This document shows positions 12,836 to 49,980 of a DNA stretch of 64,000 nt, one piece after another. A program made the translations under genes and the position numbers. Each line of letters starts with the position of its first letter. Within the stretch, counting starts at the first letter, position 1. The notes under the pieces were generated by a model. That model did not search any database, was not told the origin of the DNA, and saw nothing but the letters and a program-made list of their open reading frames with translations. The DNA is from Boletus sp. NGJ. Its lineage: Eukaryota > Basidiomycota > Agaricomycetes > Boletales > Boletaceae. The stretch lies in contig JAGTXK010000275.1 in assembly GCA_019096195.1 (NCBI GenBank), forward strand, positions 310,001 through 374,000. The letters run 5' to 3'.

Positions 12836-12849
12836 GTGCGAGATTCCGT

Positions 12850-13040
12850 TTGTGGAGACGTAGCTCCTCTGCAGCATGCAAACAACGCCAGCACACTGTC
12901 CCCCGTTAACGCTATGCATGCATTCTCGCCAACAGATAGTATGCGATACCCGCAGTCGAATCCACCCGCCCGTACGACAAAAGGGTGATCGAAGCTGGTG
13001 GACCCTGATTTTCAAAGGTTTCGAACACCTAGTGACCTTT
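12850..13040 (+). repeat. Diverged interspersed repeat, third copy
   Basis: Shares GACGTAGCTCCTC, GCATGCAAACAACGCC and a degenerate form of the AGCCGAATACGGCC half with the copies at 10,495 and 10,720. The spacing between halves is longer here. It lies between the HET fossil and the minus-strand zinc-finger gene. Confidence 0.45.
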
Positions 13041-13241
13041 CGTTTTTGGGCCCGCTTTGACTTGAAGGTGATGGCTGCGCCACGCTGAGGGAACGCACGC
13101 GGGCGCGGTATGTATCTATGGACTTTTATGCAGTTTTTCGTCAGCAAGGACAGGTCGTTCGTCCTGTACTTGCAGCGTTCTTTGACAAAAGACCTCAAAG
13201 GCCCGCATACTTTGATCGTATCAGGGCACGCGTGATTCTTC

Positions 13242-16800: not shown

Positions 16801-17152
16801 GAATCATCATTGACAGATATGACATTGATCTTATGATCCTCCTGGATACTGTACATTGACTACTACTACTGAACCATAATTGACAGTGCAGCACATCTAG
16901 GATTCAACAATGATCCAGAACACACCAGCTAGAGCTATCATCCACATCCCTCCTGCAGCCAGTGAGCTGATGATACAGTATATCTGAGTTTTTGCTCACT
17001 GCTTTGGTTGATGATTCACTTTGTTGGCAGTATGAATTCCTTCCACTGTCATAAGTGTCATTGTTGACATATCTGACCACAGGTACACCTATGCAGAACA
17101 ACCTGTAGGTGCCAGTGGTGGCTCCAGTCTGAGAAGCTCTGGTAAGTTAATA

Positions 17153-18724
17153 TAGTGGCTCAAAAAAGTGTCCCAATGTTTGGCTATTTTGCAAAGACTT
17201 GACATTTACAAAAGAACCAAAAGGTATTAGCCCCAATCCTTGCCCTGAAGATGAGCCCTTAGTTATATAATTTGGTTGTCATGGCACTGAGATATAGCCA
17301 TATTAAAGTGACATGTCATTGGGACACTTTTTTGAGCAACATTTCTATTCTTCAATTTAGTACTTTGTATGCCCTCCCTTTGCTTTTATCACTGCCTCTA
17401 GTCTTCTAGGCATACTCTCTATCAATCCTTGACACTCCTCAACCTCTATCTTCCCCCACTCCACTTCAATTCTCTCCCAAAGCTCCCATACTCCTTTTGG
17501 TGGTGTTGTATAGCTATTGAGTTTTTTTTTTTGAGGATTTGCCAAAGATGTTCAATGGGATTAAGGTCTGGAGATTGTGCTGGCCAGTCAAGAAGCTTGA
17601 TCCCTTGAGATTCCAGCCACTCCTTGGCTCTTTTATAAAGGTGCTTGGGGGTCATTATCTTGTTGAAAGATGCTCTCTTCAGGAATTCCAGAATTTTCCA
17701 TGGAAGGAAGCAGATTATCCTCCAAAATGGAGACATACTGCTCAGCATTCATCCTCCCTTCAACCTCTGCAAGAATCCCCACTCCACTCCAACTCATGCA
17801 TCCCCAAACCATCAAGGAATCTCCTCCAAACTTTACTATTCCCTGAACTTCCTTGTCTTGCAAAGACTTTCCTGCCAATTTCCATACATACTTCCTTCCA
17901 TCTGACCCAATCCTGTTGATCTTGGTTTCATCTGACCATATAACCCTAGTCCAGTTCTCCACAGTTCAATGTTGGTGCTCGAGAGCAAAGGCTAGCCTAT
18001 GTTGCCTATGCTTCACAGACAAGAGTGGCTTCTTTTTCTTGACTACAGCCTTGAGAGATGCAGACTTGAGAACATTCCTAACAGTTTGAGCAGAGACAGG
18101 AGAAGAGAGAGCAGAATTGATGAGATGGGTAGCCTGGACAGCATTTTCAACTTTGCCAGAGGTGGTACCAGAGACAATTCTCCTTTTATCAGTAGAAGAA
18201 AGTTTAGAAGGATATTCTAATTTGATGTTTTCCTTGCCTGGGTGGATCTCCTTGATAACTCTGGCCACAGTAGACTTCCCCAGACCAGTTTGGAATGATA
18301 TTTGCCTAGTAGAAAGGCCAGATTCAGAGAGAAAAAGAATATTGGCTCTAGCAGAGGAGGGAGTGGATTTCATAATGAAGTAGGGTTGGCTGAATGGTAT
18401 CTCTGCTCTTTATGCCATTTGGAGTTATGTAAGTGACATAATCAGACAGGGTTGAAGCACAGCATCCATCAGAACCTTATGTTATTCACTAAATGATAGT
18501 TGATAATATCAGGGTCAAATAAGTGTCCCAATGACATATTCTTTTAATATGGCTATACCTCAGTACCATGACAACCAACTCACATGACTAAGGGCTCATC
18601 TTCAGGGCAAGGATTAGGGCTATCAATGGCCCAGCAAGGGTTAGGGCTAATACCTTTTGGTTCTTTTGCAAATGTCAAGTCTTTGCAAAATAGTCAAACA
18701 TTGGGACACTTTTTTGAGCCACTG
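17153..18724 (-). mobile_element. Tc1/mariner-type DNA transposon, copy 1
   Basis: A 1,572-base element between TA dinucleotides (17,151-17,152 and 18,725-18,726). Both ends carry AGTGGCTCAAAAAAGTGTCC as inverted repeats, followed by a longer imperfect subterminal repeat with the words CTTGACATTTRCAAAAGAACC. It encodes on the minus strand a Tc1-like transposase. It is nearly identical to the plus-orientation copy at 20,837-22,407, which lies 2.1 kb away. Confidence 0.9.
17357..18373 (-). pseudogene. Tc1-type transposase (DD34E), inactivated, copy 1
   Basis: Starting at 18,373 the minus strand encodes a helix-turn-helix front (GLSTRQISFQTGLGKSTVAR), then the catalytic blocks VIWSDETK, FQQDND and [11 protein letters not shown], the usual Asp-Asp-Glu triad of Tc1 enzymes, and ends in AKGGHTKY. 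Three defects are visible: a TGA at 17,966-17,968 where family members have Trp (after ALEHQH); a one-base insertion in the C-run after FQQDNDP; and an 11-base A/T homopolymer after QILKKK that shifts frame. Full length would be about 335 residues, normal for the family. It is a plain DNA transposon gene, dead as it stands. Confidence 0.85.
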
Positions 18725-18726
18725 TA

Positions 18727-19081: not shown

Positions 19082-20172
19082 CATCAGTAAAAACAGGACT
19101 AACTGTCCAGTACTGTCTAGTAACATAGTGCTCATAGTGAGGGTCCAACTGGATAGTGGTTTGATAGTACTATGACAGTGTCTCATAGTCTGTTTATAGT
19201 GTGGCCATAGTCTGTCATAGTCTGTCATTAGTGTCTCATAGTATTCTCATAGTACTTTCATAGTGGTCATAGTATTCTCAGAATGTCTCATAGTGTCCCA
19301 TAGTATTCTTATAGTACTTCCATAGTGATCATAGTGATGCCATAGTATACATAGTGCTTCTATAGTGGTAGCAATCCTAATCCTAATTCTAATTCAATCT
19401 CAAACCAATTCTACAGTAATTTCAAATTCAATCAAATATTAATTCTATTAATCCTAATCCTAGTCCCAATCCCAATCCCAATCCCAATCCCAATCCCAAT
19501 CCTAATGATTTACAAAGTGAAATGTTAACTTCATGTAATGAGTAGAGAAAAATAAAATTGAGAAACAAGAGGGTGTGGGAAAGTTTTTGAAGTCTGGCTT
19601 GTTTATATAAGAATGGTGACACAAATACTGGCAAATAATGTCCGCTTTTTTAACACTGAGTGTGGGAAAATGGACTTGCATATTTTTTTTAAGTGTAGAT
19701 CTACACTTTTGGTACATTTTGTGACTACACTTTTACTACACTTTGGTGCACATTTTTGCTACACTATACTACTCTTTCCTACTCTTTTTGTACAACATTT
19801 GACTATACATTTGACTACACTTTTTGTACACTTTTTGACTACACATTTTGTATACTTTTGACTTAGAATTAGAATTAGAATTAGAATTAGGATTAGGATT
19901 GAGATTGAGATTGGAATTGGAATTGGGATTAGGTTAAAATTACTACTATGACTATGACTACTACTGTATGAATGTACTATGAATGCTATGAAATGCTATG
20001 GTACTATGATACTATAATACTATAAACACTATGAATATACTATGGATACTATGAATACACTTTCAATACTATGATATTATAAACACTATGAGTTATCTAT
20101 GAAACTACTATGACTACTATGAAACTACTATAGCACTATGAGCACTATGATGAAATCCTGTATTTACTAATG
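19082..20172 (+). mobile_element. Palindromic MITE-like repeat, copy A
   Basis: About 1.09 kb. It begins CATCAGTAAAAACAG and ends CTGTATTTACTAATG, inverted ends of about 15 bases. Inside each end is an array of degenerate CATAGT/ACTATG words, left array CATAGT and right array ACTATG. Further in lie CCTAAT/CCCAATC repeats on the left and TTAGAA repeats on the right. The unique core contains GGGAAAGTTTTTGAAGTCTG and a series of CTACACTTTT words. There is no transposase. The layered inverted design suggests a foldback-like non-autonomous DNA element. Two further copies lie at 31,072 and 34,186. Confidence 0.7.
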
Positions 20173-20757: not shown

Positions 20758-20836
20758 AGATGTATCAGAAACTATTTATAATTTAAATCATTGTCAATTG
20801 ATACCGTAATGAGAAGGCAGGAACAAGGCCCAGTTA

Positions 20837-22407
20837 CAGTGGCTCAAAAAAGTGTCCCAATGTTTGACTATTTTGCAAAGACTTGACATTTGCAAAAGAA
20901 CCAAAAGGTATTAGCCCTAACCCTTGCTGGGCCATTGATAGCCCTAATCCTTGCCCTGAAGATGAGCCCTTAGTCATGTGAGTTGGTTGTCATGGTACTG
21001 AGGTATAGCCATATTAAAAGGATATGTCATTGGGACACTTATTTGACCCTGATATTATCAACTATCATTTAGTGAATAACATAAGGTTCTGATGGATGCT
21101 GTGCTTCAACCCTGTCTGATTATGTCACTTACATAACTCCAAATGGCATAAAGAGCAGAGATACCATTCAGCCAACCCTACTTCATTATGAAATCCACTC
21201 CCTCCTCTGCTAGAGCCAATATTCTTTTTCTCTCTGAATCTGGCCTTTCTACTAGGCAAATATCATTCCAAACTGGTCTGGGGAAGTCTACTGTGGCCAG
21301 AGTTATCAAGGAGATCCACCCAGGCAAGGAAAACATCAAATTAGAATATCCTTCTAAACTTTCTTCTACTGATAAAAGGAGAATTGTCTCTGGTACCACC
21401 TCTGGCAAAGTTGAAAATGCTGTCCAGGCTACCCATCTCATCAATTCTGCTCTCTCTTCTCCTGTCTCTGCTCAAACTGTTAGGAATGTTCTCAAGTCTG
21501 CATCTCTCAAGGCTGTAGTCAAGAAAAAGAAGCCACTCTTGTCTGTGAAGCATAGGCAACATAGGCTAGCCTTTGCTCTCGAGCACCAACATTGAACTGT
21601 GGAGAACTGGACTAGGGTTATATGGTCAGATGAAACCAAGATCAACAGGATTGGGTCAGATGGAAGGAAGTATGTATGGAAATTGGCAGGAAAGTCTTTG
21701 CAAGACAAGGAAGTTCAGGGAATAGTAAAGTTTGGAGGAGATTCCTTGATGGTTTGGGGATGCATGAGTTGGAGTGGAGTGGGGATTCTTGCAGAGGTTG
21801 AAGGGAGGATGAATGCTGAGCAGTATGTCTCCATTTTGGAGGATAATCTGCTTCCTTCCATGGAAAATTCTGGAATTCCTGAAGAGAGCATCTTTCAACA
21901 AGATAATGACCCCCAAGCACCTTTATAAAAGAGCCAAGGAGTGGCTGGAATCTCAAGGGATCAAGCTTCTTGACTGGCCAGCACAATCTCCAGACCTTAA
22001 TCCCATTGAACATCTTTGGCAAATCCTCAAAAAAAAAACTCAATAGCTATACAACACCACCAAAAGGAGTATGGGAGCTTTGGGAGAGAATTGAAGTGGA
22101 GTGGGGGAAGATAGAGGTTGAGGAGTGTCAAGGATTGATAGAGAGTATGCCTAGAAGACTAGAGGCAGTGATAAAAGCAAAGGGAGGGCATACAAAGTAC
22201 TAAATTGAAGAATAGAAATGTTGCTCAAAAAAGTGTCCCAATGACATGTCACTTTAATATGGCTATATCTCAGTGCCATGACAACCAAATTATATAACTA
22301 AGGGCTCATCTTCAGGGCAAGGATTGGGGCTAATACCTTTTGGTTCTTTTGTAAATGTCAAGTCTTTGCAAAATAGCCAAACATTGGGACATTTTTTTGA
22401 GCCACTG
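20837..22407 (+). mobile_element. Tc1/mariner-type DNA transposon, copy 2
   Basis: A 1,571-base element between TA dinucleotides (20,835-20,836 and 22,408-22,409). It begins CAGTGGCTCAAAAAAGTGTC and ends with the inverted match GAGCCACTG. Over its length it appears well above 98 percent identical to copy 1 (17,153-18,724) but lies in the opposite orientation. The differences noticed are single bases and one base in a poly-A run. Confidence 0.9.
21188..22203 (+). pseudogene. Tc1-type transposase (DD34E), inactivated, copy 2
   Basis: Same protein as copy 1, here on the plus strand: start MKSTPSSARANIL at 21,188, catalytic blocks VIWSDETK, FQQDND and NPIEHLW, end AKGGHTKY at 22,203. It shares the TGA at 21,593-21,595 in place of Trp and the extra base after FQQDNDP with copy 1. 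The poly-A run after QILKKK is 10 bases here and 11 in copy 1. Shared defects mean both copies were made from an already inactive element or have been homogenised, and movement would need a transposase supplied from elsewhere. Confidence 0.85.
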
Positions 22408-22551
22408 TATAGTAGTTCATTATAGCACACCATAGCACATATAGTATTGCCAAAAAGATGCTATATTACACAATGTAGCCACTTGTAGCCATGATAGTGC
22501 CTATATTAATTATGACTCAGCACACTTGCTGATCACATCCATCTCCTGCAC

Positions 22552-29319: not shown

Positions 29320-31040
29320 AGCTATACAGTATATCAGTTGGGCTGGGTGGAAGGAATTTACTTACTCAACATGTGATATATCAAGTGGCTTAGGCTGAAT
29401 GAACAGATGAGGAACGATGCAGTGATGTATCAATTGGATGTTGAGGGGAGTAGGGATGGACAACAATGAGGCAGTGTTCCATGATGTATTAGTAACATTG
29501 GGTAAAAGGAAATGGAATACACTTACCATGCAGGTGATACATCACATGGATGTCACAAAAAGGCAGGGAATCTGAAATCACTGATGCAGTGATATATCAT
29601 CAGTCGGGTTGGATGGAAGGAATTTACTTACTTAATATGTGATATATCACCTGGCTTGGGCCGAACAAACAGGCAAGGAACGACACAGTGATGTATCAAT
29701 TGTATGTCGAGGGGAGTAAGGATAGTGAGTGATATACCAGTCAGGTTGGGTGGTGATAATATTCATCCACAATGAAGTCTCAAACCTTTCCAGTTCCATC
29801 ACTTCCAAGCCCAGAAGTGTTACTCTGGAACCATATCCCGGAACTGCTGGTTCTGAAGGTGTTTTCAGAAATTTTCCACCCCCTTCTGCAGGTTCTGAGA
29901 CTAGCATCTTGAAACTGCTCCGGAACTGTTTCCGGAGCTTTCCTGCACTCATTCTGAACTCGGAATGAGCTTTTATTACACTTAAACTTTCATCATTTCT
30001 TAGCTGATACTTACAACATACATTACACACTTCTTTCAGACCCGTTTACACAACATCACATATAACACAATATGAGTATACCTCCGCCCATATATAGTTC
30101 CCACTCACTGACATGCACCTCAGTTGTTTCCACCCTCTTAGGCAGCAACTGAGATGAGTCTCTTTTTCTTTATCATTTATTTGTAGCTAATGTACTGTAG
30201 CTCTGGGCAATTCTTAGGTGAATAATCTAGTCGTTTCCACCCTCTTAGGTAGTGGCTGAGCTCTGGACAATTCCTGCCCATTCTTAGATTCTGTCAGGTG
30301 GAATGAATTTACTTACTTAATATGTGATATATTACCTGGCTTGGGCAGATGAGCAAATAGGTGAGTAACAATGCAGTGATGTATCAGTCAGTGTTGAGGG
30401 ATGCAGGGGATAGTAGCTGATATATCAGTCATATCAGTTGGGTTGGGCGGAAGTGAACATACTCACTCACCATGTGATATATCAGCTAGATTGGGTGGCT
30501 GACTCGGAGTGAGCCTGGGAGCAACAATGTGATGATATATCAATTAGATTGCAGAGAAAGAACATACTCACTCAGTTGTGATATATCACCTAGATTGGGT
30601 GGCCAAATGAATGCACAAGCAACTCAGACAACAAAGTGATATATCAGTCAGATTGTTAAGGGGAGTAAGGATGGTGGGGGAGTGATGTATTACTTGAATT
30701 GCATAGAAGGAACATACAATCTCAGTATGTGATATATCACTCAGATCTAGTAGCTGAGTGGCGAGTGATGATGCAGTGATATATCAGTTGAATCATTGAG
30801 GGAAGTAGGATTAGTGGAGGGGTGATGTATCACTTAGATTGCATAGAAGGAATCATCCTACCCATGTGGTGATATATTAGTCACATTCTCAAGGAGAGCA
30901 GGGGGGATGAAGGGTTGATATATGATTAGGGCAGCTGGGCAGTGCTCATGTATTACTGATATATCAATCATGGGGTGTAGGGGAGCAATCTGTTGTTGGG
31001 GGGGCTAGTAATGTACCACTACATTCATGGTAGCACCATA
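29320..31040 (+). repeat. Degenerate minisatellite with GTGATATATCAC palindromes
   Basis: Repeated units share CTTACTYAATATGTGATATATCA then a TGGCTTGGGC or GATTGGGTGG block, and GCAGTGATGTATCAATTGGA followed by GAGGGGAGTAGGGATG. Unit length varies from about 60 to 130 bases. The stretch at about 29,745-30,290 breaks the array and contains no repeat unit. The perfect dodecamer GTGATATATCAC and near copies recur many times, so single strands could fold locally. Confidence 0.7.
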
Positions 31041-31071
31041 GTATTATATATCACATTCCCTGCCACTGGTG

Positions 31072-32172
31072 CATAGTGCTCATAGTGAGGGTCCAACTGG
31101 ATAGTGGTTTGATAGTACTATAACAGTGTCTCATAGTCTGTTCATAGTGTAGCCATAGTCTGTCATAGTATTCTCAGTGTCTCATAGTATTCTTATAGTA
31201 CTTTCATAGTGGTCATAGTATTCTCATAGTGTCTTATAGTGTGGTCATAGTGATGCCATAGTATACATAGTGCTTCCATAGTGGCTTAGCAATTCTAATT
31301 CTCATTCTAATTCTAATCCAATTTCAAGCCAATTCTAATTTCAAATTTAATCAAATATTAATTCTACTAATTCTAATTCTAATTCTAATTCTAATCCAAG
31401 TCCCAGTTCCAATCCCAATCCTAATCCCAATCCTAATGATTTACAAAGTAAAGTGTTGACTTCATGTAATAAGTAGAGAAGGATAAAATTAAAAAACAAG
31501 AGAGTGTGGGAAAGTTTTTGAAGTCTGGCTTGTTTATATAAGAATGGTGGCACAAACATTGGCAAATAATGTCCGCTTTTTTAATACTGAGTGTGGGAAA
31601 ATGGACTTGGATATTTTTTGAATATAGGTCTACACTTTTGGTACACTTTGTGACTACACTTTTACTACACTTTTGGTACACTTTTGGTACACTTTGTTTG
31701 CTACACTGTACTACACTCTCCTACACTTTTGTTTGCTTTTTTTTTACTACACTTTGTTTGCTACACTTTTGCTACATTTGGTGCGCATTTTTGCTACACT
31801 GTATTACACTCTTTCCTACACTTTTTGTATAACATTTGACTACACCTTTGACTACACTTTTTGTATACTTTTGATTTAGGTTTAGGTTTAGGTTTAGCTT
31901 AAAATTTAGCTTAAAATTACTACTATGACTATGACTACTATGGATGTACTATGAATGCTATAAAATGCTATGGTATTATGACACTATGATACTATGAACA
32001 CTATGAAATGCTAGGGTACTATGATACTATGATACTATGCACACTATGAATATACAGTACTATGGATACTATAAATACACTTTCAATACTATGATACTAT
32101 GAATACTATGAGTTATCTATGAAACTACTATGGCACTATGAGCACTATGATGAAATCCTGTATTTACTGATG
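31072..32172 (+). mobile_element. Palindromic MITE-like repeat, copy B (left arm)
   Basis: Same family and orientation as copy A. It starts at the CATAGTGCTCATAGTGAGGG array, so the outer terminal CATCAGTAAA is missing. The inner end is intact (CTGTATTTACTGATG at 32,158-32,172). It is nearly identical to the reverse complement of copy C (34,186-35,292), with which it flanks a chitin synthase fragment. It contains three TTTAGG units near 31,875. Confidence 0.7.
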
Positions 32173-33345
32173 AATGCACAATATCATGACTTTCATGCAA
32201 TTAGCAATGATTCACATCCCAGCTGGTACTTTGAGAGTATGACTATCATACATTGGAACAACCATATTGGCTACATGGGCTACACCCCTCAAGAAATATC
32301 CAGCATGGCAAACTTGAGATCCTCCCTCAGTATCTACAATGGGCTAATCTATGATTTGACAGACTATCTCAATTACAGCCCTGCTGTTAAGGGACCAAAT
32401 AGTGAATAGGCTCCCACTGGCACAGACACACAGTTCATGGACAGCACCCTTGTAAATCTATTCAAGTACACCTCTGGTCAGGACCTCATGAAGGACATCA
32501 ATAACCTCAACATTGATTCTGGAATGCTCACCACATAGAAGACATGCCTCTGAAACCTATTCCTCATTGACATGGTGGACAACTAAAATTCTGTTCAGTA
32601 CTTGTTCTCACAACACATTCTCCCTGTATTATTGATTATAATAGTCAGCATTATCACATTCAAGTTCATTGCCTTGATCAACTTTGGTGCACCTTGTGTG
32701 CCTGAGGGCCATGACAAATCTGTGATTTATCAAGTGCCTTGTTACACAGAAGAAGAGACCTCACTCCATTGTACCATTGACTCGCTTACCCAGCTCAAGT
32801 ACAACAACAAGCACAAGTTGATTCTCATTGTCTGTGATGGCAATATCATTGGTTCTGGCAACAATCAACTGACCCCTGTATCATGCTTGATATCTTTGGT
32901 GCAGATGGTGACTCCAACCCCAAGCCATTGAGTTTTATGTCATTGTCAACAAGCAAGGGTGCTCAGCAATATAACATGGGCAAAGTATACTGGGTTATAT
33001 GAGTGCATGGGTCACATTGTGCCTTATCTCATGGTTGTCAAGGTCAGTGAGCCAATGGAGAGATTGCCCCATGGCAACCAAGGAAAGCAAGACCCACAAA
33101 TGGCTATTATGCACTTTTTGAACAAGGTACATCTGTACTCATGGGAGGACATGATATAGTGGCTTACATGCAATGGTGGAATAGGTGCACTTTAACTCTA
33201 GATGTATTACCAAGTCAAGAGTGTGATTGGTGTCCAAATTGACCTGACATTTTACAACTTTCTGTTCACAATTGATACTGATTCCACTGTGGATCCATTC
33301 TCTTTGAAGTTTGAACTAGTTGATCTTTGCATATGTAGTGACCTA
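32173..33345 (+). pseudogene. Captured chitin synthase fragment (class V-like)
   Basis: Directly after copy B the plus strand encodes WYFESMTIIHWNNHIGYMGY and TPQEISSMANLRSSLSIYNG, followed by IYDLTDYL (the cytochrome-b5-like region of large chitin synthases). Then come GTDTQFMDSTLVNLF, CLFSQ-like YLFSQHILPVLL, INFGAPCVPEGHDKSVIYQV, PCYTEEE and LILIVCDGNIIGSGNNQ (start of the glycosyltransferase domain), and finally MYYQVKSVIGVQ. The catalytic EDR and QRRRW motifs downstream are missing. Stops interrupt it (for example TAG at 32,407-32,409), and it is CpG-poor. It is a partial copy of a host gene whose intact parent would lie elsewhere; similarity starts at the exact inner end of the MITE-like arm. 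Confidence 0.75.
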
Positions 33346-34185
33346 TCTTTATCATAACTGTTGTTCATTCATGCTTGCTCCCTTTTGCAGCATGGTTTAT
33401 GATAAGAAGGTAAAATTACTTGGTGTCTGATATTACCATTTTCATCTTAATATTAGGGTCTTAGACCATACTTGTGCATGATTGAGGAAAAGCATAATCT
33501 AAATCTATCCATGTCACCATCCAAACCAATCTGAATTCACTCCCCAAACTGAGATTTAGATAATGCCAGATTATTGCAATGTCATTGACTATACATGACA
33601 ACCATAGACGACCACATTTGGAAGTTATGATTACACAATTATAATGGTATTAATAATGCTTAGTGCCAGTATTGGAGTCTGAAACCTCTCTTTTCCTTCA
33701 ACTGCAATGTTATTATGATGTGACAATGTTCTCTTGTCAATGGCTACTACCTATCCTACAAGGCTATGAATTGAACTTCTAAGTCTACCTATTGTCTGTC
33801 AAGCACCATCGCTCTTTTGCTTATATTCAATGCGACTAGCATTCTCATATTGATTGATGATGTCAAGGCTGTTAACACCTTCACAAATGGCAATTTCAAC
33901 CAGATTGTATTCAATGCAGGGAACTCAGATTCAGACTATATCCTATATGCAAACCTTTGTATTATTAAACAAAAAAAAAAGAACTTTTTGAATTTCTAAC
34001 AATGCCCATTCTAGATCTAGTACTATTCCCAATCAAACTGGCAGTGCTTTCTGGGCTATCTTGAACCAGATAACACTAATTTAAAGTAAGTGTCAATATG
34101 ACATTGTCTGTTATTATTTTGTTCAGATGTCTGACTCATGCAATTTTTATTTTTATTTTACCAACATCATCACTACATCAGTAAA
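33346..34185. other. AT-rich sequence between the inverted arms, nothing recognised
   Basis: No motif was recognised. It may be captured or internal element sequence too decayed to identify. An ORF of 60 residues at 33,817-33,999 has no known similarity. Confidence 0.4.
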
Positions 34186-35292
34186 TACAGGATTTCATCA
34201 TAGTGCTCATAGTGCCATAGTAGTTTCATAGATAACTCATAGTATTCATAGTATCATAGTATTGAAAGTGTATTTATAGTATCCATAGTACTGTATATTC
34301 ATAGTGTGCATAGTATCATAGTATCATAGTACCCTAGCATTTCATAGTGTTCATAGTATCATAGTGTCATAATACCATAGCATTTTATAGCATTCATAGT
34401 ACATCCATAGTAGTCATAGTCATAGTAGTAATTTTAAGCTAAATTTTAAGCTAAACCTAAACCTAAACCTAAATCAAAAGTATACAAAAAGTGTAGTCAA
34501 AGGTGTAGTCAAATGTTATACAAAAAGTGTAGGAAAGAGTGTAATACAGTGTAGCAAAAATGCGCACCAAATGTAGCAAAAGTGTAGCAAACAAAGTGTA
34601 GTAAAAAAAAAGCAAACAAAAGTGTAGGAGAGTGTAGTACAGTGTAGCAAACAAAGTGTACCAAAAGTGTACCAAAAGTGTAGTAAAAGTGTAGTCACAA
34701 AGTGTACCAAAAGTGTAGACCTATATTCAAAAAATATCCAAGTCCATTTTCCCACACTCAGTATTAAAAAAGCGGACATTGTTTGCCAATGTTTGTGCCA
34801 CCATTCTTATATAAACAAGCCAGACTTCAAAAACTTTCCCACACTCTCTTGTTTTTTAATTTTATCCTTCTCTACTTCTTACATGAAGTCAACACTTTAC
34901 TTTGTAAATCATTAGGATTGGGATTAGGATTGGGATTGGAACTGGGACTTGGATTAGAATTAGAATTAGAATTAGAATTAGTAGAATTAATATTTGATTA
35001 AATTTGAAATTAGAATTGGCTTGAAATTGGATTAGAATTAGAATGAGAATTAGAATTGCTAAGCCACTATGGAAGCACTATGTATACTATGGCATCACTA
35101 TGACCACACTATAAGACACTATGAGAATACTATGACCACTATGAAAGTACTATAAGAATACTATGAGACACTGAGAATACTATGACAGACTATGGCTACA
35201 CTATGAACAGACTATGAGACACTGTCATATGAGCACTATGGTACTGTCTAGTACTGTCCAGCACTGGACAGTTAGTTCTGTTTTTACTGATG
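34186..35292 (-). mobile_element. Palindromic MITE-like repeat, copy C (right arm)
   Basis: Complete copy in inverted orientation to A and B. On the plus strand it begins CATCAGTAAATACAG and ends CTGTTTTTACTGATG. TA dinucleotides flank both ends (34,184-34,185 and 35,293-35,294), a possible target duplication. It is almost identical to copy B over the shared length. A Ty3/Gypsy fossil starts only 11 bases beyond its outer end. Confidence 0.75.
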
Positions 35293-35303
35293 TAGGTTCC
35301 CAC

Positions 35304-36860
35304 TGTCATATCCCATGCAACTCAACAAGTCCAACTCTGGACCTCCATCCATAACTCCTGCACATTCCCCCTCGGAGTATGCTCTCATACCCTTGGACTT
35401 GTAACTCACCCCACATAGTATTCCTACTTCCTCATTCATACATAAAGCTATGTCCTACTCATCTGTCTTAGTCCCACTTTGTAGCTGTCTCTGATTGTTA
35501 CGCCGGGTAACAATTGGGACACGTTCCCGTATAATCCCAACACCTGTTGGATTACCGGACTAGCAGGCTTGAGGAAGAGATCACTTAACCTCCAGAGGCC
35601 CAAATACCCTCTGACTGGGGACCACTGCTAGCTTTACGTAGAGCGCTATGTTACCTCTACGACCGATGGCGGAGTCTCGGATTTGGAATGCCGGTGGCGG
35701 AGTCCCGGTCTTACTAGAGTGCTGGTGGCAGAGTCCCGGTCTTGCTGGATTGCCGGTGGCGGAGTCCCGGTCTTGCTGGGTCAGTGGCGGAGTCCTGACC
35801 TACTACGACCAACCCCTGTTGGTCGTTGGAGTTGCCGAAGCTTTAGGAGCCGGTTACGGCAACGACGGCGCACAAGTGCGAAGTGAAGAGGAGGATGATC
35901 ACAAGCACGAGGGCGAGCACCTCCAGAGCGCGGGAGAAGGCTTCTGAGGTGAAGTGGAACCTTGGCGGGAGAAGCGGTAGATTACACGGGAAGATGTGTA
36001 GATCTAGGTTAGAGGTTACATGAAGGGCCCGCGTCCCTATTTATAGGCCTTGCCCCTCTAGGGCAGGCTTCGTGACGAGTATAGTAATATCCAGTCGCAG
36101 ACACGAGATTACTATAAGTGGATCAAGGCATGAATCGAAACGGGAAGGTAGGAATACTGGGCTATGTACGAGAGAGAGCACAGCCGAGGAGGCAATGTCA
36201 ATGATCGGGTCGAGAAGGAGGAAGGCATGTATCAGTGAAATAGGAGAGGCGAGTGTCCATACCAAACGGGTAGGTTCCTAAAAAGGGAGTTACGAAGTAA
36301 CTTCCTAGAAAGGTAGTTCCGAATGGGGCGATGCCTGAGTTGGGGTGTGCGGGGGAATCCCAGGGGAATCCCTGGTCGGAGTCGAAGAAGAGGTCGTCCC
36401 ATAGGCCTACAGGGGGAGAGGGAAGGGGAAAAGATGTACCCCCTTTGGTAACTGTAACACTGATCCAGTGTCTGTCTCGCTTAGGAGCACTGCTCCGGCG
36501 AGGTCCATCTTCATTTCTAATTACTCAGCTACTACTTACTCATTACACCTTACGAACTCTGTTAGTAATCTTGTTTCCAATTGTATATAAATCTTCGCTA
36601 CTACTCTTGTAAAGTTAGTTTGAATATCAACTCTGAACACCACTCCTGTCCTCTGTCTGAGTTTCGACAACTCACTCTGATCCTCTGCTTGACTTGATGT
36701 TCAACCACGTTGAGTCTAAAAACCTTTGATCTTACTACGTCTTCAAAATCCGGGACATCAGACTCAAGCAAGGGTGCACCACATAAGGTGAAGCCAAGTC
36801 CTGACACCCTCAAGTAACTCCGGTCCTTTGGAGTTGCATCTGAGTTTTCCGTTCTTAACA
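35304..36860 (+). repeat. Left LTR of fossil A, interrupted by a solo LTR
   Basis: Starts TGTCATATCC and ends GTTCTTAACA. About 588 bases of its own sequence match the right LTR; the rest is a 964-base foreign insert plus the insert's duplicated target. Confidence 0.88.
35496..36459. mobile_element. Solo LTR of a different LTR retrotransposon
   Basis: A 964-base stretch beginning TGTTACGCCGGG and ending GGTAACTGTAACA, with the TG...CA ends typical of LTRs. CTGAT is duplicated on both sides (35,491-35,495 and 36,460-36,464) and occurs once in the right LTR of fossil A. No internal region is present, so it is the product of LTR-LTR recombination. It is CpG-rich, unlike the old island sequence, so it is probably a later arrival. 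It shares no obvious sequence with fossils A or B. Confidence 0.8.
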
Positions 36861-39034
36861 GTATATTTGAACTCCCACTTGCAACAAGTCTCTTACATTA
36901 TGGCTACATGCACCACTAGATTGCAGACTCGCATCATTGGCGTAAACCCCTCCGCATCTCCATGTTACAACCTGTTGAGTGCATTCGGTAGCAGTCGGTG
37001 AGGCCCAGAACTCGTCAACCAGTTCCAAAGCTTCTCTGCTCGACGAACCCCCACCTCTGCCTCACAGTCATGACCTCTCCCAGAGTCCCCTACTCCAGGA
37101 GCGTGCATCATCGAGCTACCTACCAATGATAACTCCACCACCTCCCGGCTCTCAAGCCAGCACTCAAATCAAAGAGTGCAGGCCGCCTTCTTCCCAAGTG
37201 ATGACATCCCGGACTTCCCCGGAGATGACCTATCAGATGATGATCCCGACTTCCCCAATGATGACGCTCCCTCTGACTCCAACAGTGAGCACGTCCCACA
37301 AGACACTCTTGCACTGCTTGCCGATGCCATCAAAGGCCTCGCTCGCTCCACGCGTCGTCCCCCCAACCATACCCCATGCACTAAGGTCCAGGAACCGGAC
37401 CAGTTTGACAGGACTGAGCCCCACAAACTCCGGGTCTTCCTGGTTCAGTGTGAACTCAACTTCCAAGACCGCCTGAAGGCTTTCAGGATGGACCGCGCCA
37501 AAGTCACCTTTGTGCAGTCCTACCTAAATGGCATGGCTCTGGAGTGGTTCGAACCAGACCTCCTCCAGATGGAAGATCCCACTTTCCGTCCGCTCTGGAT
37601 GGATGACTTTAAAGAGTTCGTCCTAGAACTCCAGACCAACTTCGGTCCGCACGACCCCGTCAGAGATGCAGAGCACCAGCTCAACCACTTGTCAATAAAG
37701 GATACTCAATACATCAACAAGTATGTGGTCGAGTTCAACCAGATTGCTTTGCAAGTCCATGGTTACGGAGAAGGTGCCCTCCGACACCACTTCTACAATG
37801 GTCTGCCGGACCGCATCAAGGATGAGATATTGCGAATTGGAAAACCCCTGATGCTCTCCGAACTCTGAAGCCTCGCACACACTATCAACATGCACTATTG
37901 GGAGTGCAAGTCAGAAGTCAGCAGGCAGACTAAAGCGTCAACCCCATCCTCTGCTCCGAAACCATCCACCCCCGCCGCATCATCCTCTCCGCACCCCTCC
38001 GGTAGTGTCAAGGACTCCTTGGAGTCCAAAGGCAAAGGAGCTACCACCTCCGCCCATCCAAAGCCAGACTTGTCGTCCAAATTAGGGAAAGACAGCAAGC
38101 TCACCACGGATGAGAGAAAGCGCAGGTTCGACAACAAGCTCTGCATGTTCTGTGGCCAAGCCGGTCACATGGCAAAGGACTGTCTGAAGTCAACCTCCAG
38201 CACATCCAAGGGTCGCACCGTGACCACAACTCTGGAAACCAAACCGGAGGTCTCCACCTCAGAGGCAAAAAAATAATCCGCGACCTCCATGACTCCGCAC
38301 AGACTGGAGGTTGCATTGAACCCACATGTGCAGCTAAGGAGATTCGCCTCAATGTGTCCACTCTTTCCAACCCCAAATCCCTCATGCCCTCTGTCTCCTT
38401 AGTCTCCTACCCAATTCTGCCCTTCTCCACACTTGTAGATTCAGGCTCCTCCAATTGTTTCATAGATACTTTCTTTGTAAATAAAAATGAACTTTCAACC
38501 TACCCCATCCCTCTGCTCCAACTCTGTCTCTTCGACGGAACTACCAATAGCATGATCATCCAAGCCATCAACCTCTCAGTCTGCTTCGCAACTGGTGACA
38601 TCACCCCGACGACTTTCTACGTCACTCCACTGGATTCCACCTACTCCATTGTCCTAGGACACAACTGGCTCACCCGCCACAATCTGTTGATTGATTGGGT
38701 CACGAGCAGTATCACATTCCATTCATCTGAGCAGCGTTTGCCAGCAACCCTAAGCTCCCCTCCGCAGCCTCCAGAATCCCTTCCTCCAGCTGACACCCCA
38801 CCCGATTCACCGCGTTTCTCTGACCACAAAGCTCTGCCCATAGCGCTCATTAGTGCACCAGCATTCACACTAGCCTGTCACCTTGAGGGCTCCATTCAAT
38901 TCAGCTTGCAACTCTGTCCCCAGGAAAGCGATCTCCGCTCCGCTTCCATCACTCCCCCAGAACCAGTTGACCTTTCCGGTGTTCCTCCGGAATACCACAA
39001 TTTCCCCAATGTCTTTAGCAAGAGCAAAGCCTCC

Positions 39035-39516
39035 TGTAATAATATAGGAAATTTTCAAACTTTTCAAACGCTCACTTACTTTTCATTCTCTTCAACTTTC
39101 TTCTTCATAAAGTCACGTGACTGTGCACGTGACCGTGGGAACACATCACATCATAGGTCCAGAACCTATGACATCATATGACATCATACCTCATGTGATC
39201 CACGCCTCTTTAATTTCCGCTCTTCTCACACAGCCCTATTAATCTCCGTCTTACTATATTTAGTAGTTTATCACACGCACTGCTTGGTCCGTGCGCATTC
39301 TCTCCATGTATATAAGATAGCACTTTGACAACTGGTATCCCCAGTCTAATCCATTTGTCTCTTCCTCAATAACCTATTAGCTTCGGCCATCAGTCGTCGT
39401 AGGGTTAGGAATAGTCAGGCCTAAGACTCCCCACCTGATCCGTTCAGCCAGGACCTGTGTAGCCTGCGAAGTAGTTCCGAGCCTTGTGGATTGTTTTCCG
39501 AAAGGGATTCATAACA
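39035..39516 (+). repeat. Left LTR of fossil B
   Basis: Begins TGTAATAATATAGG and ends GATTCATAACA. It contains a TATATAAG TATA-like site near 39,308 and a CACGTGAC palindromic pair near 39,110-39,130. Confidence 0.9.
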
Positions 39517-42500
39517 CTTGGATTAGACTACTATACACAATGCTCGGACTCCAGAGCTAAGGAGATATACACGGGCCCAGCGTTTTAAGGGACATCTGCA
39601 GAATTCACCACTTGACGGTGACAAGAAAAGAACTTGCCAAAACTCTTGCATATATGCTCGTCCAGCGTACTAAATAAGGATAATGTTGCTGCTGGGCATA
39701 GTGCACTAGCCCCACTTCTCAGGTGGTTGCCGACTTGAGCGTATGCTGGTTCTACAATAGTGAACCCAGGTTCTCGTGATTACCTGTGACATCACGAAGT
39801 AACGATACGGGAGATTTATCTCGCCTTTCTCCCGTGCTACACCTGCTCGTAGTAAAGCAGTCATCCTCCGGTCCCCCTATCACCGTCGCCCATCATTTTC
39901 AACGACCTCTACTTCGACTCCTACGAAGGCGTAGGAACCCCAGAACCGGATTGTAAGATATCTGGTAGTAAGGTTCTGAAAGAAGACCGACGCAGGAAAA
40001 GGAAAACTTATACAAGGAACCCCGACAAAATCAGACCTCTTCGTCCATCCTCCGCATTCGCCCTTTACCGCATCCAATACTTCCGCTCTTATCTTCGCCC
40101 CACATCTCTTCTAAAACCAAATCCTCGATATGTCTAGAGTCGACATTGACGAACTCGTCCAAAAGCTCGCCGACCTTACTCAGGAACGCGATAAGGAAAA
40201 TATCACGAAGAAGATTGCCGATCCTGGAAAATGGGACGGCACAAGGTCATCATTCCGCCCTTGGTGGATAAAGCTCCGTCTCTGGGTTGACGCTCAGAAA
40301 TGGAAAAATAACAAGATCATGGACATCGCTGTCCTCTCCCGTCTTGAAGGAAAAGCGGAATCCTTCGCACAATTAATCATGGAGCACTACCTAGATGAGG
40401 AAGCTACCATCGAGACGGACGCAAACGGGGTTCTGCAGCCGGCAAAAGGAGCCGCTGCTTGGCCTACTTGGAACAGGCTACAGGAGCAGATCAAAACCCA
40501 CTTCTGTATCGATACCTTGGCTCACGAGTCATTAAGGAAACTCGAGACCTTGAAACAAAACGGTCATCCTATTGACCTGTTCCTACAACGATTTGAGATC
40601 TTGAGGAAGGAATCGTACATCGACGATCACCACGCCGAAGTCTTACTGAAAAAGGCGGTAGACTACAAAATTTACGAACGTTCTCGTTTGAACAGCCCCG
40701 CCCGCAATTTTGACTATGAAGACTTAGTCATAAACTATAGAACAATAGGTCGGGCATTCGAACAAATCGTGAACGAGCGTGGCCCCCCTCATAGATCTCA
40801 ACCCCCGCGCTCCTCCTTCCCTCCTCCACGTGGGCAACCCCCACAAAATTCATATCGTCCAACCTACACGGCAGTAGGAACACAACCGGGTCGCGGTGCG
40901 CCCATGGAAATAGGTGTCCAGCAGGCTGGACCCTCCAAGGAAACCAGAACCTGTTTCCACTGTGGCAAACCCGGCCACATAAAACCTAACTGCCCAACGA
41001 ACCCTTTCAAACGGACTGGTCGTCCACCTATGCAACGCCAGATTTGGGACTGGAATCAAGGCTCGTACGTCGAGCAAAATCAGGGAGAAAACGAGTATCC
41101 CCATTTTTTTAACGAACCCCAAACTCGCGCCTACGCACAACGACCACTCCCGCAACCTCCCGCAGCTACAGCGGCACCAAGTGTAGCAGCAAGAACCTAT
41201 GTTTCTGATGAGGCAGAAGCATATTACAGAGACAAATTTGAGGTGGAAGCAAAAGCCCGAGCTGCACAGGCTTTAAATGGACAGCGCCAATGAGTACAGA
41301 GGGAACTCGGCGGCAAGAACTTTCTTCTTCTTCTTCTTTTTCATCTTCTCTTACAACGTGTACAAATACCGATTTTCCTATCTCCGATCTCTCCGCTGTA
41401 CTACGTAAACTATCAATGAAATCTGCGAGGGCGTCTCAATTGAGCGTGGCACCAGAATTAAGTGTACTTAATTCCCTCGTAAAACAACAAAAAATATCGA
41501 ATATATATAAACCCACAAAGGTCACGTTAAACCAAGCATCCACACTTTCCTATGGTGGAGAATTCTCCCTTGAAACCATAGTATCGTGCAACGTTAACGG
41601 CCAGTGGTCACGATACCGTTTCCAGTCCCTCCTGGATTCGGGAGCGTCGCATACGTTCATAGATCAGGACTACGTAAAAAGACACGGAATACCTTTCTAT
41701 ACTATCGACAACCCCATTAAGATACATAACGCTGACGGATCGGAAGGAGCAATCGGACCAATCCGTCATGCGGTAACCCTGATGGTGGAAATCGAAGGAC
41801 ACTACGAAGTCATAGACGCGTACATATCTAAATTAGGCACTCATCGAATGATCATCGGGTATGACTGGCTATACCGTCATAACCCTGACATCGATTGGGT
41901 AAAACAGACGATTACGTTTCCCCGACTGTACCTCATACTGTAAAATTATGGGCCTAGGACCCACTTCCTCTTACGAGCCAGGCTCAACTACGTACAATAG
42001 AAGAAGGACTCAAAGAAAAGGTCCCATTAACTTATCACGAATTTCTAGATGTCTTCTCGGAGAAAGAATCACAAAGGATGCCTTTACGAAAACACTGGGA
42101 TCACGCAATCGATCTCAAAGAAGACTTCATCCCCAAGAAAGGACGTGTTATTCCCCTTTCGGACATCGAGATGGAAGAAGTCAGAACGTTCATCGAAAAG
42201 GAAGTCAAAAAGGGTTACGTCAAACCCTCAAAATCTCCACAGACATCTCCCGTCTTCTTCATTCCCAAAAAAGACGGCAAAAAACGAATGGTTATGGACT
42301 ATCGCTATCTAAACGAAGGAACAATCAAGAATTCCTATCCACTCCCTCTAATCCCGCAATTAATTGATCGACTCAAAAATGCGGATCTATTTACGGCCAT
42401 GGATCTCCGATGGGGCTATAACAATGTCCGCATCAAAGAAGGCGATGAATGGAAAGCGGCATTCGTCACCCCTATTGGAGCATACGAACCTACCGTTATG

Positions 42501-44987
42501 TATTTCGGTCTTACGAACTCCCCTCCCACGTTCCAAACGATGATGAACGACATATTTAACGACATGTATGCGGTAGTCGTCATCTACATCGACGACGTCA
42601 TGATATTTACATCAAAGAAAGACAAAAGAACAACACGAAGAAGTTGTAAAGGAAGTTCTATGCCGCTCTCCGCGAGAATGACCTTTACGTAAAACCAGAA
42701 AAGTGTACCTTCTCGGCAGAAAAAGTGGACTTCCTAGGTATGGTGGTATCTAAAGAGGGGGTAGAAATGCAGTCGAAGAAAGGTAGCTGGGGTCATGGAT
42801 TGGCCGATTCCCACTGGCTTGAAGCAACTCCAAGGCTTCCTCGGACTCTGTAATTATCATAGACGATTCATAGAAGGCTTCGCGCAAATCGCTCGACCCT
42901 TGAACGATCTTACCAAGAAAGACGTTCCATTCAAATGGGGTCCAGATCAGCAAGAAGCATTCGCAAACCTAAAAAGAAAATTTACGGAAGCGCCACTTCT
43001 CGCGTACCCAAACCACGATCAAGAAATGCGTGTGGAAACCGATGCCTCAGACATCGCCACGGGAGCAGTGCTCTCCACCTTATGTAACGACGGTAATTGG
43101 CGACCAGTCGCCTTTATCTCTCACTCCTTTGACAGCGCAGAGCGCAACTATCCCATCTACGACAAAGAACTGCTGGCAGTAATACGTGCCCTGGAAGAAT
43201 GGCGCCACTATTTAATAGGTCGCAGAAGGATTTGAAATCTGGACCGATCATAAAAATCTAGAATATTGGAAGAAGCCCCAAACTCTCAGCGGACGACAAG
43301 CACGTTGGCATGCGCTTCTCCAAGAATTCAATTATACTTTCGTATACAAACCAGGATCGTCCAATGGAAGAGCTGACGCTCTCTCTCGACGACCCGATCA
43401 CGGCGACGCAGTTGTAGATCATAATCAAAACGTCACCGTTCTACCTCCTTCTATATTTATAAATCACGTTTCTCTCTCTTTGGACCTTATGACAAAAATA
43501 CAAAAAGAATCCAAAAAACATGAACGTCGATGCTATAAACAATTTCCTTTTCTACTCAGAACTTAATCTATTCAAAAATGAAAAAGATCAAATCTACGTA
43601 CCCGAATCCCTTACGTACAGAAATCATTACATTATGTCACGACTCGCCTATTGCAGGACACGGCGGTCATTCCAAAACTGATACACACTCTTTCTCGATA
43701 TTTCTCGTGGCCAGGAGTCACAAAGGACATAAAAATGTATGTAGATCACTGCCAAGTGTGCGCCCTCACGAAGGGTAAGCAAAACGCACCGGCAGGAAAA
43801 GTTATTCCTCTTACCCGCGGCAAAAAGACCATGGGAAGACCTATCGGTAGACTTTCATCACAGGCTCTACCGCCATCACAATCTTTTACGGCTATCTGCG
43901 TTGTTGTGGACAGATTCTCAAAAGAAGTTATTTTTATACCAACATACGATACATGCTCTTCGAAAGATCTCGCTATTCTATTCAGAGACCATGTCTGGTC
44001 AACACATGGACTTCCCTCTACCCTCGTATCAGATCGAGGACCACAATTCGTTTCTGCTTTCACTCAAGAGCTTTGTAAGCTCCTCAGCATAAAACAAAAA
44101 ATCTCTATGGCATATCATCCACAAACGGATGGACAAACTGAACGCGTTAATAGAGATCTTGAACAGTATCTCCGCGCGTATGCTGGAAAGAAACAAAACA
44201 ACTGGGTCAATTGGCTGAAGTTAGCCCAATTCTCTCACAATAACACCGTCACTACGGCTACCAGAGAAATTCCCTTTAAAGTAATAAGAAATTATATACC
44301 ACGTATGGGTTTTGAAGGGAATCTCACGGGTTTTGCAGACGAAATTGGGCATAACCATAAGGAGATTGAAGAAGCGCTAGAAGCTACACGCGAGAGGATG
44401 ATCACCTCTTCCGATAAAAAACGATCTACAGCACCAGAATATTCTATTGGTCAGCAAGTCTGGCTTTCAACAGATAAATTAAAACTTCCCTATACGGCAA
44501 AGAAACTCATACAAAAATGGATTGGCCCCTACGTCATCACTTGGGTCCTTTCTAACGCCATAACGCTCAAACTTCCCAATCCTGTTCACATCCATCCAAC
44601 TGTGAACATTTCTCACGTCAAACCATACAGAGACACACTGCCTGGACAGCCTAAATCTCGTCCAGATGCAATAGAAATTGACGAAGAAGGAGAAGAGCAG
44701 TTTGAAGTTGATTATATCGCCGCTTCCAGGATGAAGAAAGGCAAACTAGAATATCTGGTTCATTGGAAGGGTTACGATGAAACCGATCGTACCTGGGAAT
44801 CTGAAGACATTCACACCACTGCACCGGATGCAGTTAAAGATTTCCATCATCTAAACCCTTCTGCACCACGCAAGCTTTGTGGACTATCCATTTCAGCCTT
44901 CGCTTCTTTATTCACTCCTTATGAAAATTTCACGGAAAACAAAAAAACAACGACTCGCCTGGAATTCGAGTCTTAAAGAGGGGGTAG

Positions 44988-45469
44988 TGTAATAATATAG
45001 GAAATTTTCAAACTTTTCAAACGCTCACTTACTTTTCATTCTCTTCAACTTTCTTCTTCATAAAGTCACGTGACTGTGCACGTGACCGTGGGAACACATC
45101 ACATCATAGGTCCAGAACCTATGACATCATATGACATCATACCTCATGTGATCCACGCCTCTTTAATTTCCGCTCTTCTCACACAGCCCTATTAATCTCC
45201 GTCTTACTATATTTAGTAGTTTATCACACGCACTGCTTGGTCTGTGCGCATTCTCTCCATGTATATAAGATAGCACTTTGACAACTGGTATCCCCAGTCT
45301 AATCCATTTGTCTCTTCCTCAATAACCTATTAGCTTCGGCCATCAGTCGTCGTAGGGTTAGGAATAGTCAGGCCTAAGACTCCCCACCTGATCCGTTCAG
45401 CCAGGACCTGTGTAGCCTGCAAAGTAGTTCCGAGCCTTGTGGATTGTTTTCCGAAAGGGATTCATAATA
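44988..45469 (+). repeat. Right LTR of fossil B
   Basis: Same length as the left LTR and differs by about three transitions. It is preceded by a purine tract (AAAGAGGGGGTAG), the expected polypurine tract. Confidence 0.9.
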
Positions 45470-48440
45470 CCTCCCAGCTTGCTCCACACCAGGAACACAA
45501 TCTGAAGATCGACCTGGAGGATGGAGCCTCTCCTCCCTTGGAAACTACCTACTCTCTTTCCACCTCTGAACTCGGCTCTCTCCATGCTTTCCTCAATGAG
45601 CACTTAGCCATGGGCTTCATCAGACCATCTTCCTCCACCCATGCCACCCCAGTCCTCTTTGTCTGCAAGAAGGACAGTTCACTCCGCCTTTGTGTCAACT
45701 TCCGAGGGCTCAATAAGATCACAAAGAAAGACCACTACCCACTCTCCCATATCTCTGACCTCCTAGATGCTCCAAGCTGCGCAAAGATTTACACCAAGAT
45801 CGATCTCCAGCATGCCTACCATTTGGTTCATATTGCTGACGGAGACGAATGGAAAATGTCTTTCCAAATGTGCTACAGCTCTTACGAGTGGCTGATAATG
45901 CCTTTCGGCCTTACCAACACCCCCGCGGCTTTCCAATGGTTCGTCCACACTGTTTTTGCAGATCTTCTCGATGTTAGTGTGATCATCTACCTGGACGACA
46001 TCCTGATCTTCTCTGTGGATAAAACTGCTCACAGAGAACATGTCTAGGAAGTCCTCCGACGACTCCGCAAACATGGCCTATATGCAAAACCTAAGAAATG
46101 TGAATGGTCCACCAATACTATGGAGTACCTCGGCTACATCATCACGCCCTCCAGCCTTACGATGTCTTCGGACAAAGTCAAAGCCATGCAGGACTGGCCG
46201 AAACCTTATAAAGTCAAGGACATCCAATCCTTCCTTGGATTTGCCAACTTCTACCAGCGTTTCATCACCAATTACTCTGACATCGTCATTCCGCTAACCC
46301 GGTTGACCCACAAGGGTATTCCTTGGGTCTTTAGAGATGACTGCCGATCCACCTTCCTTTCGCTAAAGGAAGCCTTCACTACCACTCCCATTCTCACCCA
46401 TTGGGCTCCCGATGCTCCAATGATCATAGAAACTGACGCCTCTGACTACGCCATCGCCAGAATTCTTTCCATTTGTTGTCCGGATGAAGAACTCTGGCCC
46501 GTTGCCTTCTTTTCACAGACGCTCACCACTCTGGAGCTCAACTATGACATTCATAATAAAGAGCTCCTCACCATCCACAAGTCTTTCAGGGCTTGGCAGC
46601 ACTATCTCAAAGGCTCTGGCACCCTGATTGACGTCATCACCGACCACAAGAACCTGGAATACTTCACCACCTCAAAACTCCTGACCCACCAGCAAGCCTG
46701 GTGGTTGGAGTTCCTCTTCCAATTCCACATGATCGTCCACTTTCGCCCTGGACGACTTGGCGCGAAACCTGATGCCCTTACTAGATACTGGGATGTCTAT
46801 CCCAAAGAGGGGGATAAGGACTACACTTGCATCAATCCACATAATCTCTGCCCCATTTTTACACAGGAACAGCTCGCTTCTTCCCTCTGTGCTACTTATC
46901 TTGCAGCTCCGGTACTCCGGGCTAGCACCCTGTTTGATATAGAGCAACTCCACAGCGACATCCTATCCGCACTCCCTTCTGACCCATTCACCGAACTACA
47001 TGTGTCCTCTCCTGACCTGGACTTACGCTGGTCAGTTGACAAAGACGGCTTCCTCCATCTCAACAAGCGCATCTATGTCCCCAATGCCAATGACCTCCGA
47101 CTTCAAGTCCTCCAGTACAAACACAACCATCCTCTCTCCAGACATTTCAGCCAAAATCAGACATTAGAACTTGTACACCGCGAATATACCTGGCCAAGGA
47201 TAAGGACATTCATAAAAGAATACATCTCCTCCTGCACCACTTGTGCCCACACAAAGGTTCCAAGATACTGACCCTACGGGTTGTTGAAACAACTCCCCAT
47301 CCTGGAGAAGCCATGGAATTCCATCTCTATGGATTTCATCGAGCAACTCCCCTCGTCCTCCGGATTTACAGCTATCCTTGTCGTCGTGGACCAATTATCC
47401 AAACAGTGCATCTTCATCCCAACGTATGACATGGTAACATCCCCAGACTTGGCAAAACTATTCCTACCCCACGTCTTTTCTAAGCACAGAGTTCCCTCTC
47501 ACATCACCTCTAATCGAGGTTTGGAATTCGTCTCTCATTTCTTCTGCTCACTTGGGAAAGCTCTCAATATCTGCCTCCACTTCACCTCCAGTTACCACGC
47601 CGAAGGAGATGGTCAGACAGAACGGATGAACCAGACACTCGAACAGTACCTCCGCGTGTATTGCAACTACCAGCAAGACAACTGGTCCAAACTCCTTCCG
47701 TTAGCAGAGTTTGCATACAACAATGCTCCGAGTGCTACTGCTGGTGTCTCCCCGTTCTTCGCCAATAAAGGCTACCATACCAACATTACCATACATCCCG
47801 AGCACAACCTCACCTCTGCTAAAGCCCACGAATATTCCGTAGACCTCAATTCCCTCCATGACTACCTTTGTGAAGAAATGGCTGCCGCCCAAAAGTGTTA
47901 CCAAGGACCCACAGATGCTAGGCAATCTCCGGCACCAGACTTCAAAGTCAGTGACCCGGTCTTCATGAAAGCTAAGTACTTCCACTCCACTAGGCCTTTA
48001 AAGAAACTCTCCGAGAAGAACCTAGGGCCCTCAGGCAGGCTCTCACTCCTTCACACTCCAACTCCCCGAGTCAATGAAGTCTGTTCATCCGGTCTTTCAT
48101 GTCTCACAATTAGAACCCTTTGTACCCAACACCATACCTAACCAGGTACAATCTCCGCCACCTCCAGTTGAAGTAGACAGCGAACCAGAGTACGAAGTTT
48201 TGGAAATCCCTGATTCCAAGATAGATTGACGTTGCTGGAACTGCAAACTCCTATACCTTGTCTGTTGGTCCGGTTACGAAGGGACAGATGAAGAGACTTC
48301 TTGGTTGTTAGCCACCGAGCTTGGTCATGCTTCTAAACTCGTCTTGGACTATCACACCCACTATCTGGATAAGCCCGGACCTCACTCCACATAATCGGAC
48401 AAGGGAATATATTGAAGAAAAAAAAGAGGACTACACTACA

Positions 48441-49336: not shown

Positions 49337-49383
49337 TGTCTCTCACCTAGACCTTCAGGGGTTCAGGCCTAAAAGGGGGATAC

Positions 49384-49975: not shown

Positions 49976-49980
49976 CCCAC

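Follow-up and report, generated by a model that had tools for sequence, protein, structure and literature searches.

Gene capture by a fungal transposon has already been described: in Pseudocercospora fijiensis, histone H3 was transduplicated by a hAT element (PMC6710886). In plants, Pack-TYPE transposons have been proposed to originate from tandem insertions followed by re-mobilisation (PMC8903248). Other known structures consist of long inverted repeats around a middle, such as Tetris of Drosophila virilis, a foldback element with target site duplications (TSDs) of 8–10 bp (PMC4079207), and the inverted repeats of 3–12 kb that enclose a core of ~2 kb in C. sojae, those of C. tropicalis being homogenised (PMC7292649).

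We analyzed a 64,000-nucleotide stretch of the genome of Boletus sp. NGJ (hereafter the window; contig C21:310001–374000 in an assembly of 32.8 Mb and 141 contigs), in which the original prediction had described two inverted, nearly identical MITE-like arms around a chitin synthase fragment and had found them to look like a gene-capturing foldback or Pack-type element. Self-comparison of the window gave a single inverted pair at this place, with 3 mismatches among 1054 aligned bases (99.7%) and a spacer of 2003 bp (Table 1), and the terminal inverted repeat (TIR) of the arms occurs at 211 sites in the genome. The description of the arms is therefore accurate apart from the start of the right arm, which lies at 34176 rather than 34186. 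Taken as a whole, the locus is decayed DNA in which ordinary transposons lie nested and inverted neighbors are unusually alike.

Table 1. Features in and around the arm pair, with window positions and strand.
Feature	Position	Strand	Remarks
Repeat-rich flank	30297–31071	+	C73 homologue diverges after the base matching 31071
Left arm, MITE-like copy	31072–32172	−	Inner TIR CTGTATTTACTGATG at 32158–32172; outer ~50 bp and outer TIR absent
Near-identical tract	31119–32172	−	Partner 34176–35229; mismatches at 31567, 31470 and 31122 (left-arm positions)
Degenerate chitin synthase (Chitin_synth_2) fragment	32173–33412	+	83% to C17:42144–43389, introns kept
Stretch common with C73 relative	33308–33801	+	C73:561610–562071, 83%; includes junction of chitin synthase tail and other sequence
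Fragment similar to a different, gene-like place	33801–34071	+	C10:140754–141014, 81%
C73-like stretch resuming	34083–34175	+	34083–34152 aligned, 79%; remainder to right arm by eye
Right arm, MITE-like copy	34176–35292	+	Both TIRs; TA on either side; lacks 36 bp near outer end that are present in left arm
C73-like sequence outside right arm	35293–35303	+	AGGTTCCCAC vs. C73 AGGTCCCCAC, by eye
LTR retrotransposon insertion	35304–49975	+	TSD CCCAC at 35299–35303 and 49976–49980; 14,672 bp
Old C73-like locus past retrotransposon	49976–50661	+	49976–50020, 84%; 50186–50661, 79%

Both arms belong to the same TIR transposon family, which is ~1.1 kb long, apparently non-autonomous and has the TIR CATCAGTAAAWACAG. 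The exact 15-mer was found at 107 sites on the plus strand and 104 on the minus strand (reversed control pattern, 0), 101 of them in the T form and 110 in the A form, and since the two ends are distinct in this way, each family copy has an orientation. A genome search with the right arm gave matches of at least about 900 bp outside the window pair at 77–91% identity, gaps counted, which were dispersed over many contigs (among the best 40 of 270 candidates), and the substitution-only identity of 36 aligned family copies has a median of 95.4%. In their length, TIRs, many dispersed copies, self-complementary CATAGT-rich ends and lack of a long reading frame (no stop-free frame of 200 amino acids or more was found in the arms), the arms resemble MITEs and other non-autonomous TIR elements, from which they differ in having no superfamily assignment and a 2-bp target duplication whose support is statistical. 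The family probably has a duplication of this length: when flank lengths of 1–4 bp were tried on 26 TIR-to-TIR spans, one of them spanning a nested pair, the two bases on either side were equal in 10 copies, where shuffling gives an expectation of 3.4 (P = 0.0007), and differed in the other 16, while equal 3-bp flanks were found in none of the 26. No autonomous partner was found in the one long TIR-to-TIR unit that was read, a candidate of 5.3 kb (C35:251721–257041), where a Tc1-like element (97.9%) and other repeats turned out to split a family copy. Neither a description of this TIR family, among the titles and opening lines of abstracts considered, nor either TIR 15-mer in print was found in the literature searched; a 10-mer occurs in 32 papers, and the ten of these considered are, judging by title, on other subjects.

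Elsewhere in the genome, C89:917301–920400 holds a decayed partial copy of RPB1, the largest RNA polymerase II subunit, that is split by an arm-family copy with TT on both sides. Rpb1 domain 5 precedes the family copy (E = 1.5e-25) and domain 6 follows it (E = 3.2e-17), in order. As RPB1 continues on both sides, gene-like sequence beside family copies can be explained by insertion into gene debris.

The chitin synthase alignment begins at 32173, the first base past the inner TIR of the left arm, as the original prediction had it, and only 32173–33412 of the spacer matches the gene on C17. The exon stretch of that gene is open over 317 codons with no stops and matches Chitin_synth_2 with E = 2.7e-57, a value for this stretch of the gene only. 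Alignment to this gene, which had been suggested as a way to see whether introns were retained, runs through intron sequence, and they were. The debris of the spacer matches three other places in the genome, on C17, C73, and C10; no source gene was found for the C73-like part, and the whole 2003 bp has no full-length match in the genome other than the window copy itself. The cargo is also CpG-poor and broken, again as predicted. There are 93 CpG in the C17 stretch and 1 in the window fragment, and 162 of the 177 substitutions between the two are transitions, 92 of these at CpG positions. The observed/expected CpG ratio is 0.05 in the cargo, compared with 1.08 at window positions 1–16000 and 0.95 at 53000–64000, a loss that we infer to have come from DNA methylation and subsequent deamination. 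A second chitin synthase pseudogene, on C114, is not CpG-depleted (88 vs. 78 CpG in a rough comparison), and no arm match over 80 bp was found beside it in the 4 kb read. The decay of the cargo far exceeds the difference between the arms. The arms neither captured nor carry the chitin synthase fragment, and the cargo is older, CpG-stripped debris rather than one captured gene.

The junction between chitin synthase and other sequence is also present in a relative on C73, without arms. The chitin synthase tail of this relative is matched by C17 at 85% over about 100 bp, and no arm match over 80 bp was found across the 3.8 kb examined. The window follows the order of this relative before and after the right arm and again beyond the retrotransposon; immediately outside the arm, the colinearity amounts to about 11 bp before the retrotransposon, and a longer match lies beyond it. 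Given this older C73-order sequence on both sides, together with the TA/TA flanks, the right arm has the look of an ordinary insertion that arrived on its own. The retrotransposon, which was named by eye from its LTRs, TSD, and reading frames alone, has outer LTRs that are 91.2% and 89.6% identical in two aligned stretches, a divergence indicating that the locus is old, although CpG decay may inflate the age. Within it lies a nested element with its own repeats at 39035–39517 and 44988–45470 (99.4% identical). The left LTR further contains a repeat of ~1 kb (35496–36459, start GTTACGCCGGGTAACA) with relatives on C73, C89, and C35, and those on C89 and C35 adjoin or sit inside arm-family copies. 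A separate direct repeat of 1.9 kb in the window (6268–8162 and 50890–52777, 44.6 kb apart) is 88% identical.

The left arm ends at 31072, about 50 bp before its expected outer TIR. Its outer flank is 95% identical to another sequence on C73 over the last 251 bp, after which the C73 sequence continues without a match in the window; since this homologue departs after the base matching 31071, the breakpoint is placed at 31071/31072. A comparison of 2143 bp of upstream chitin synthase sequence from C17 gave no significant match in the window. Presumably, a deletion or rearrangement took the outer end of the left arm together with the upstream part of the chitin synthase. The stretch ending with this flank (29333–31071) is repeat-rich, with many GATATATCA-like units, and is related to C73:511–531 kb; its portion 29900–30296 also matches some dozens of other places.

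Chance is an unlikely source of the identity between the arms. If the arms had diverged as much as the median of the family, 3 or fewer mismatches in 1054 bases would be expected with a probability of 4.8e-18; the value is 2.6e-6 for the divergence of the closest background pair in the 36-copy alignment and 1.3e-4 for that of the closest non-partner comparison (98.53%). The best non-partner match of the window arms is 97.6% compared with 99.7% between the arms. At the three differences, the right arm has the commoner family base twice and the left arm once. The identity extends to the ends of the shared homology, and beyond the tract the arm structures diverge, the right arm lacking 36 bp of the left and then reaching its outer TIR.

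From the first 100 of the 101 T-form sites and the first 100 of the 110 A-form sites, 162 elements were obtained. Among them are at least 10 inverted neighbor pairs within 5 kb, and a nested pair on C133 brings the number to 11, of which 10 were compared (C35:255942/260204 was left out). By substitutions, six of the ten are 99.45–99.91% identical (C40, 99.91; C89a, 99.73; C21, 99.72; C31, 99.71; C7, 99.56; and C124, 99.45) and the other four are at background (C89b, 98.5; C97, 97.1; C4, 93.0; and C133, 92.8). If C89a is set aside as a possible assembly fold-back, five of nine are near-identical. By contrast, 855 comparisons between non-partners, each over 300 columns or more, gave no value of 99% or above, the highest being 98.5%, and the only direct pair compared (C38, about 5 kb apart) is 89.8% identical over 325 columns. 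Near-identity thus goes with inverted-neighbor status. An excess of inverted over direct neighbors was considered and dropped, as the at least 10 inverted pairs stand against at least 9 "direct" ones within 5 kb, 8 of which pair a T-end half with an A-end half and may each represent one interrupted copy, as was the case for the one that was read.

Some of these pairs have features of their own. The C7 arms have 26 private bases in common. A tract edge seen in one alignment of this pair disappeared when gaps were penalized less: the first 300 columns then contain 9 indels and 2 substitutions and the other 827 columns contain 3 indels and 1 substitution. At C40:842401–846400, two inverted copies that differ at one base in 1150 bp surround a DUF6570 pseudogene, and their 2-bp flanks match crosswise only (TA with TA, TT with TT). 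Recombination between the arms that turned the spacer round would give such a pattern, although two-letter matches are weak. Such a crosswise match was found in one of the three pairs open to inspection (C40, not C7 or C4). A copy of the C40 locus at C55:2601–5000 is error-rich, with many small insertions and outer flanks without a match, and this contig may be unpolished long-read sequence. A palindrome with almost no spacer (C89:10501–15200, centered near C89:12865) lies near a contig start, contains the C89a pair and fills the 4.7 kb read, flanks included, and is possibly an assembly fold-back; mirror-image matches near a contig end (C73:963434–963815 and 971608–971989) resemble it. The window has a second inverted pair, at 17150–18726 and 20835–22410, which is Tc1/mariner-like (HTH_Tnp_Tc3_2, DDE_3) and 99.75% identical over 1577 bp, with the next best copy at 98% among the best 40 of 402 candidates; a single arm-family copy (19082–20172) lies between its two elements. 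Inverted pairs of family copies around gene-like sequence, the occurrence of which elsewhere had been proposed as a check of gene capture, do occur, at the C40 DUF6570 pseudogene and C89:917k, but at the latter RPB1 continues past the copy, which indicates insertion and not capture, so that the outcome of this check is mixed.

If the arms were the ends of one transposon that captured and moved the chitin synthase fragment, near-identical inverted ends, retained introns, a gene fragment that directly adjoins the left inner TIR and a cargo drawn from several places would all be accounted for, and the histone H3 case (PMC6710886) provides a fungal precedent. This explanation is nevertheless very improbable and the original prediction does not survive on this point, because the C73-like order of the cargo continues past the right arm, the arm-free junction exists on C73, the whole cargo has no second full-length match in this genome and it is far more decayed than the arms differ. 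Moreover, with its left outer TIR missing, the arm pair cannot be delimited as one element. Here too, as in plant Pack-TYPE elements, intron-bearing gene fragments derived from a host gene lie between TIR elements; unlike in those elements, the cargo is not bounded by the arms, and neither mobilized copies nor a single TIR-bounded, multi-copy unit with an outer TSD was found. Two insertions around debris could be a precursor of a Pack-TYPE element, the outer left TIR being gone in this case. The locus shares with Tetris the long inverted arms around a middle, but each window arm itself belongs to a dispersed family of mostly single copies, and transposition of the arms as one unit is not what we observed, as the right arm looks singly inserted and the 162 elements form at least 10 inverted pairs within 5 kb. 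Decayed host gene pieces in transposon-rich DNA are common to this locus and P. fijiensis, where, in contrast, the gene is part of an element that has multiplied to hundreds of copies (PMC6710886). In its anatomy alone, the pair also resembles the Candida inverted repeats around a core, but a homogenized, centromere-like repeat as in Candida tropicalis and its relatives is extremely unlikely, given that there are several such pairs, two of them on C89 alone, and that they are built from a dispersed transposon family.

The identity of the arms could alternatively stem from the assembly or its consensus, with the second arm or its sequence produced by folded or mis-joined long reads. The C89 palindrome, and the C55 copy of the C40 locus with errors such as raw long reads might give, lend this some weight, yet for the window there is little chance that it applies, since the identity stops at the inner TIRs, the arms differ in indels and outer ends, and a folded read would have duplicated the flanks. 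A more serious alternative, though still an unlikely one, is recent local transposition, in which one arm was newly copied from the other and inserted 2 kb from it in inverted orientation, with no conversion involved. A recent copy would likewise give high identity, the Tc1-like pair of the window could be the same thing, and the C7 tract edge, as noted, was lost under gap-friendly alignment. However, recent jumps would then be seen between neighbors only, given the absence of any non-partner comparison at 99%, and the private C7 bases mean that a long-separate copy must have moved under this reading, and to no place other than beside its source. We therefore consider it probable that two family copies inserted separately into old debris, with a later loss of the left end and then homogenization of the arms, most likely by gene conversion. 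Under this explanation, the two copies would have entered, in opposite orientation, an old CpG-depleted pile of gene fragments, as the arm-free relative supports for the right arm and as is supposed for the left. The outer end of the left arm, with any chitin synthase sequence beyond it, would later have been lost through a break or deletion. The inverted copies would then have recombined, most likely by non-crossover gene conversion, so that one arm was overwritten by the other and 3 differences in 1054 bp were left. Homogenization is favored because the identity exceeds the family background and the same pattern recurs at other inverted neighbor pairs, and conversion is preferred in view of the lack of recent movement among the dispersed copies and of the private bases shared by the C7 pair. 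It is thus plausible, and our favored reading, that gene conversion keeps the window arms alike; this part of the original prediction is compatible with the six near-identical pairs but unproved, as a local copy would look similar.

At this locus, independent insertions in gene debris and subsequent homogenization would have mimicked gene capture, producing identical arms around a host gene fragment, and loci of this sort could mislead methods that infer Pack-type elements from the pairing of TIRs. With the inverted pairs collected here, the extent of conversion between inverted repeats could be measured in a fungus. More tentatively, and with considerable doubt, closely spaced inverted transposon copies in this genome may be continuing substrates of recombination, such that copies up to about 2 kb apart still become near-identical when the family has long ceased to transpose, and some have their spacer flipped, as the crosswise flanks at C40 would suggest. 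If this is true, decayed DNA would undergo conversion and inversion preferentially at inverted pairs, which might also be a stage toward Pack-type elements.
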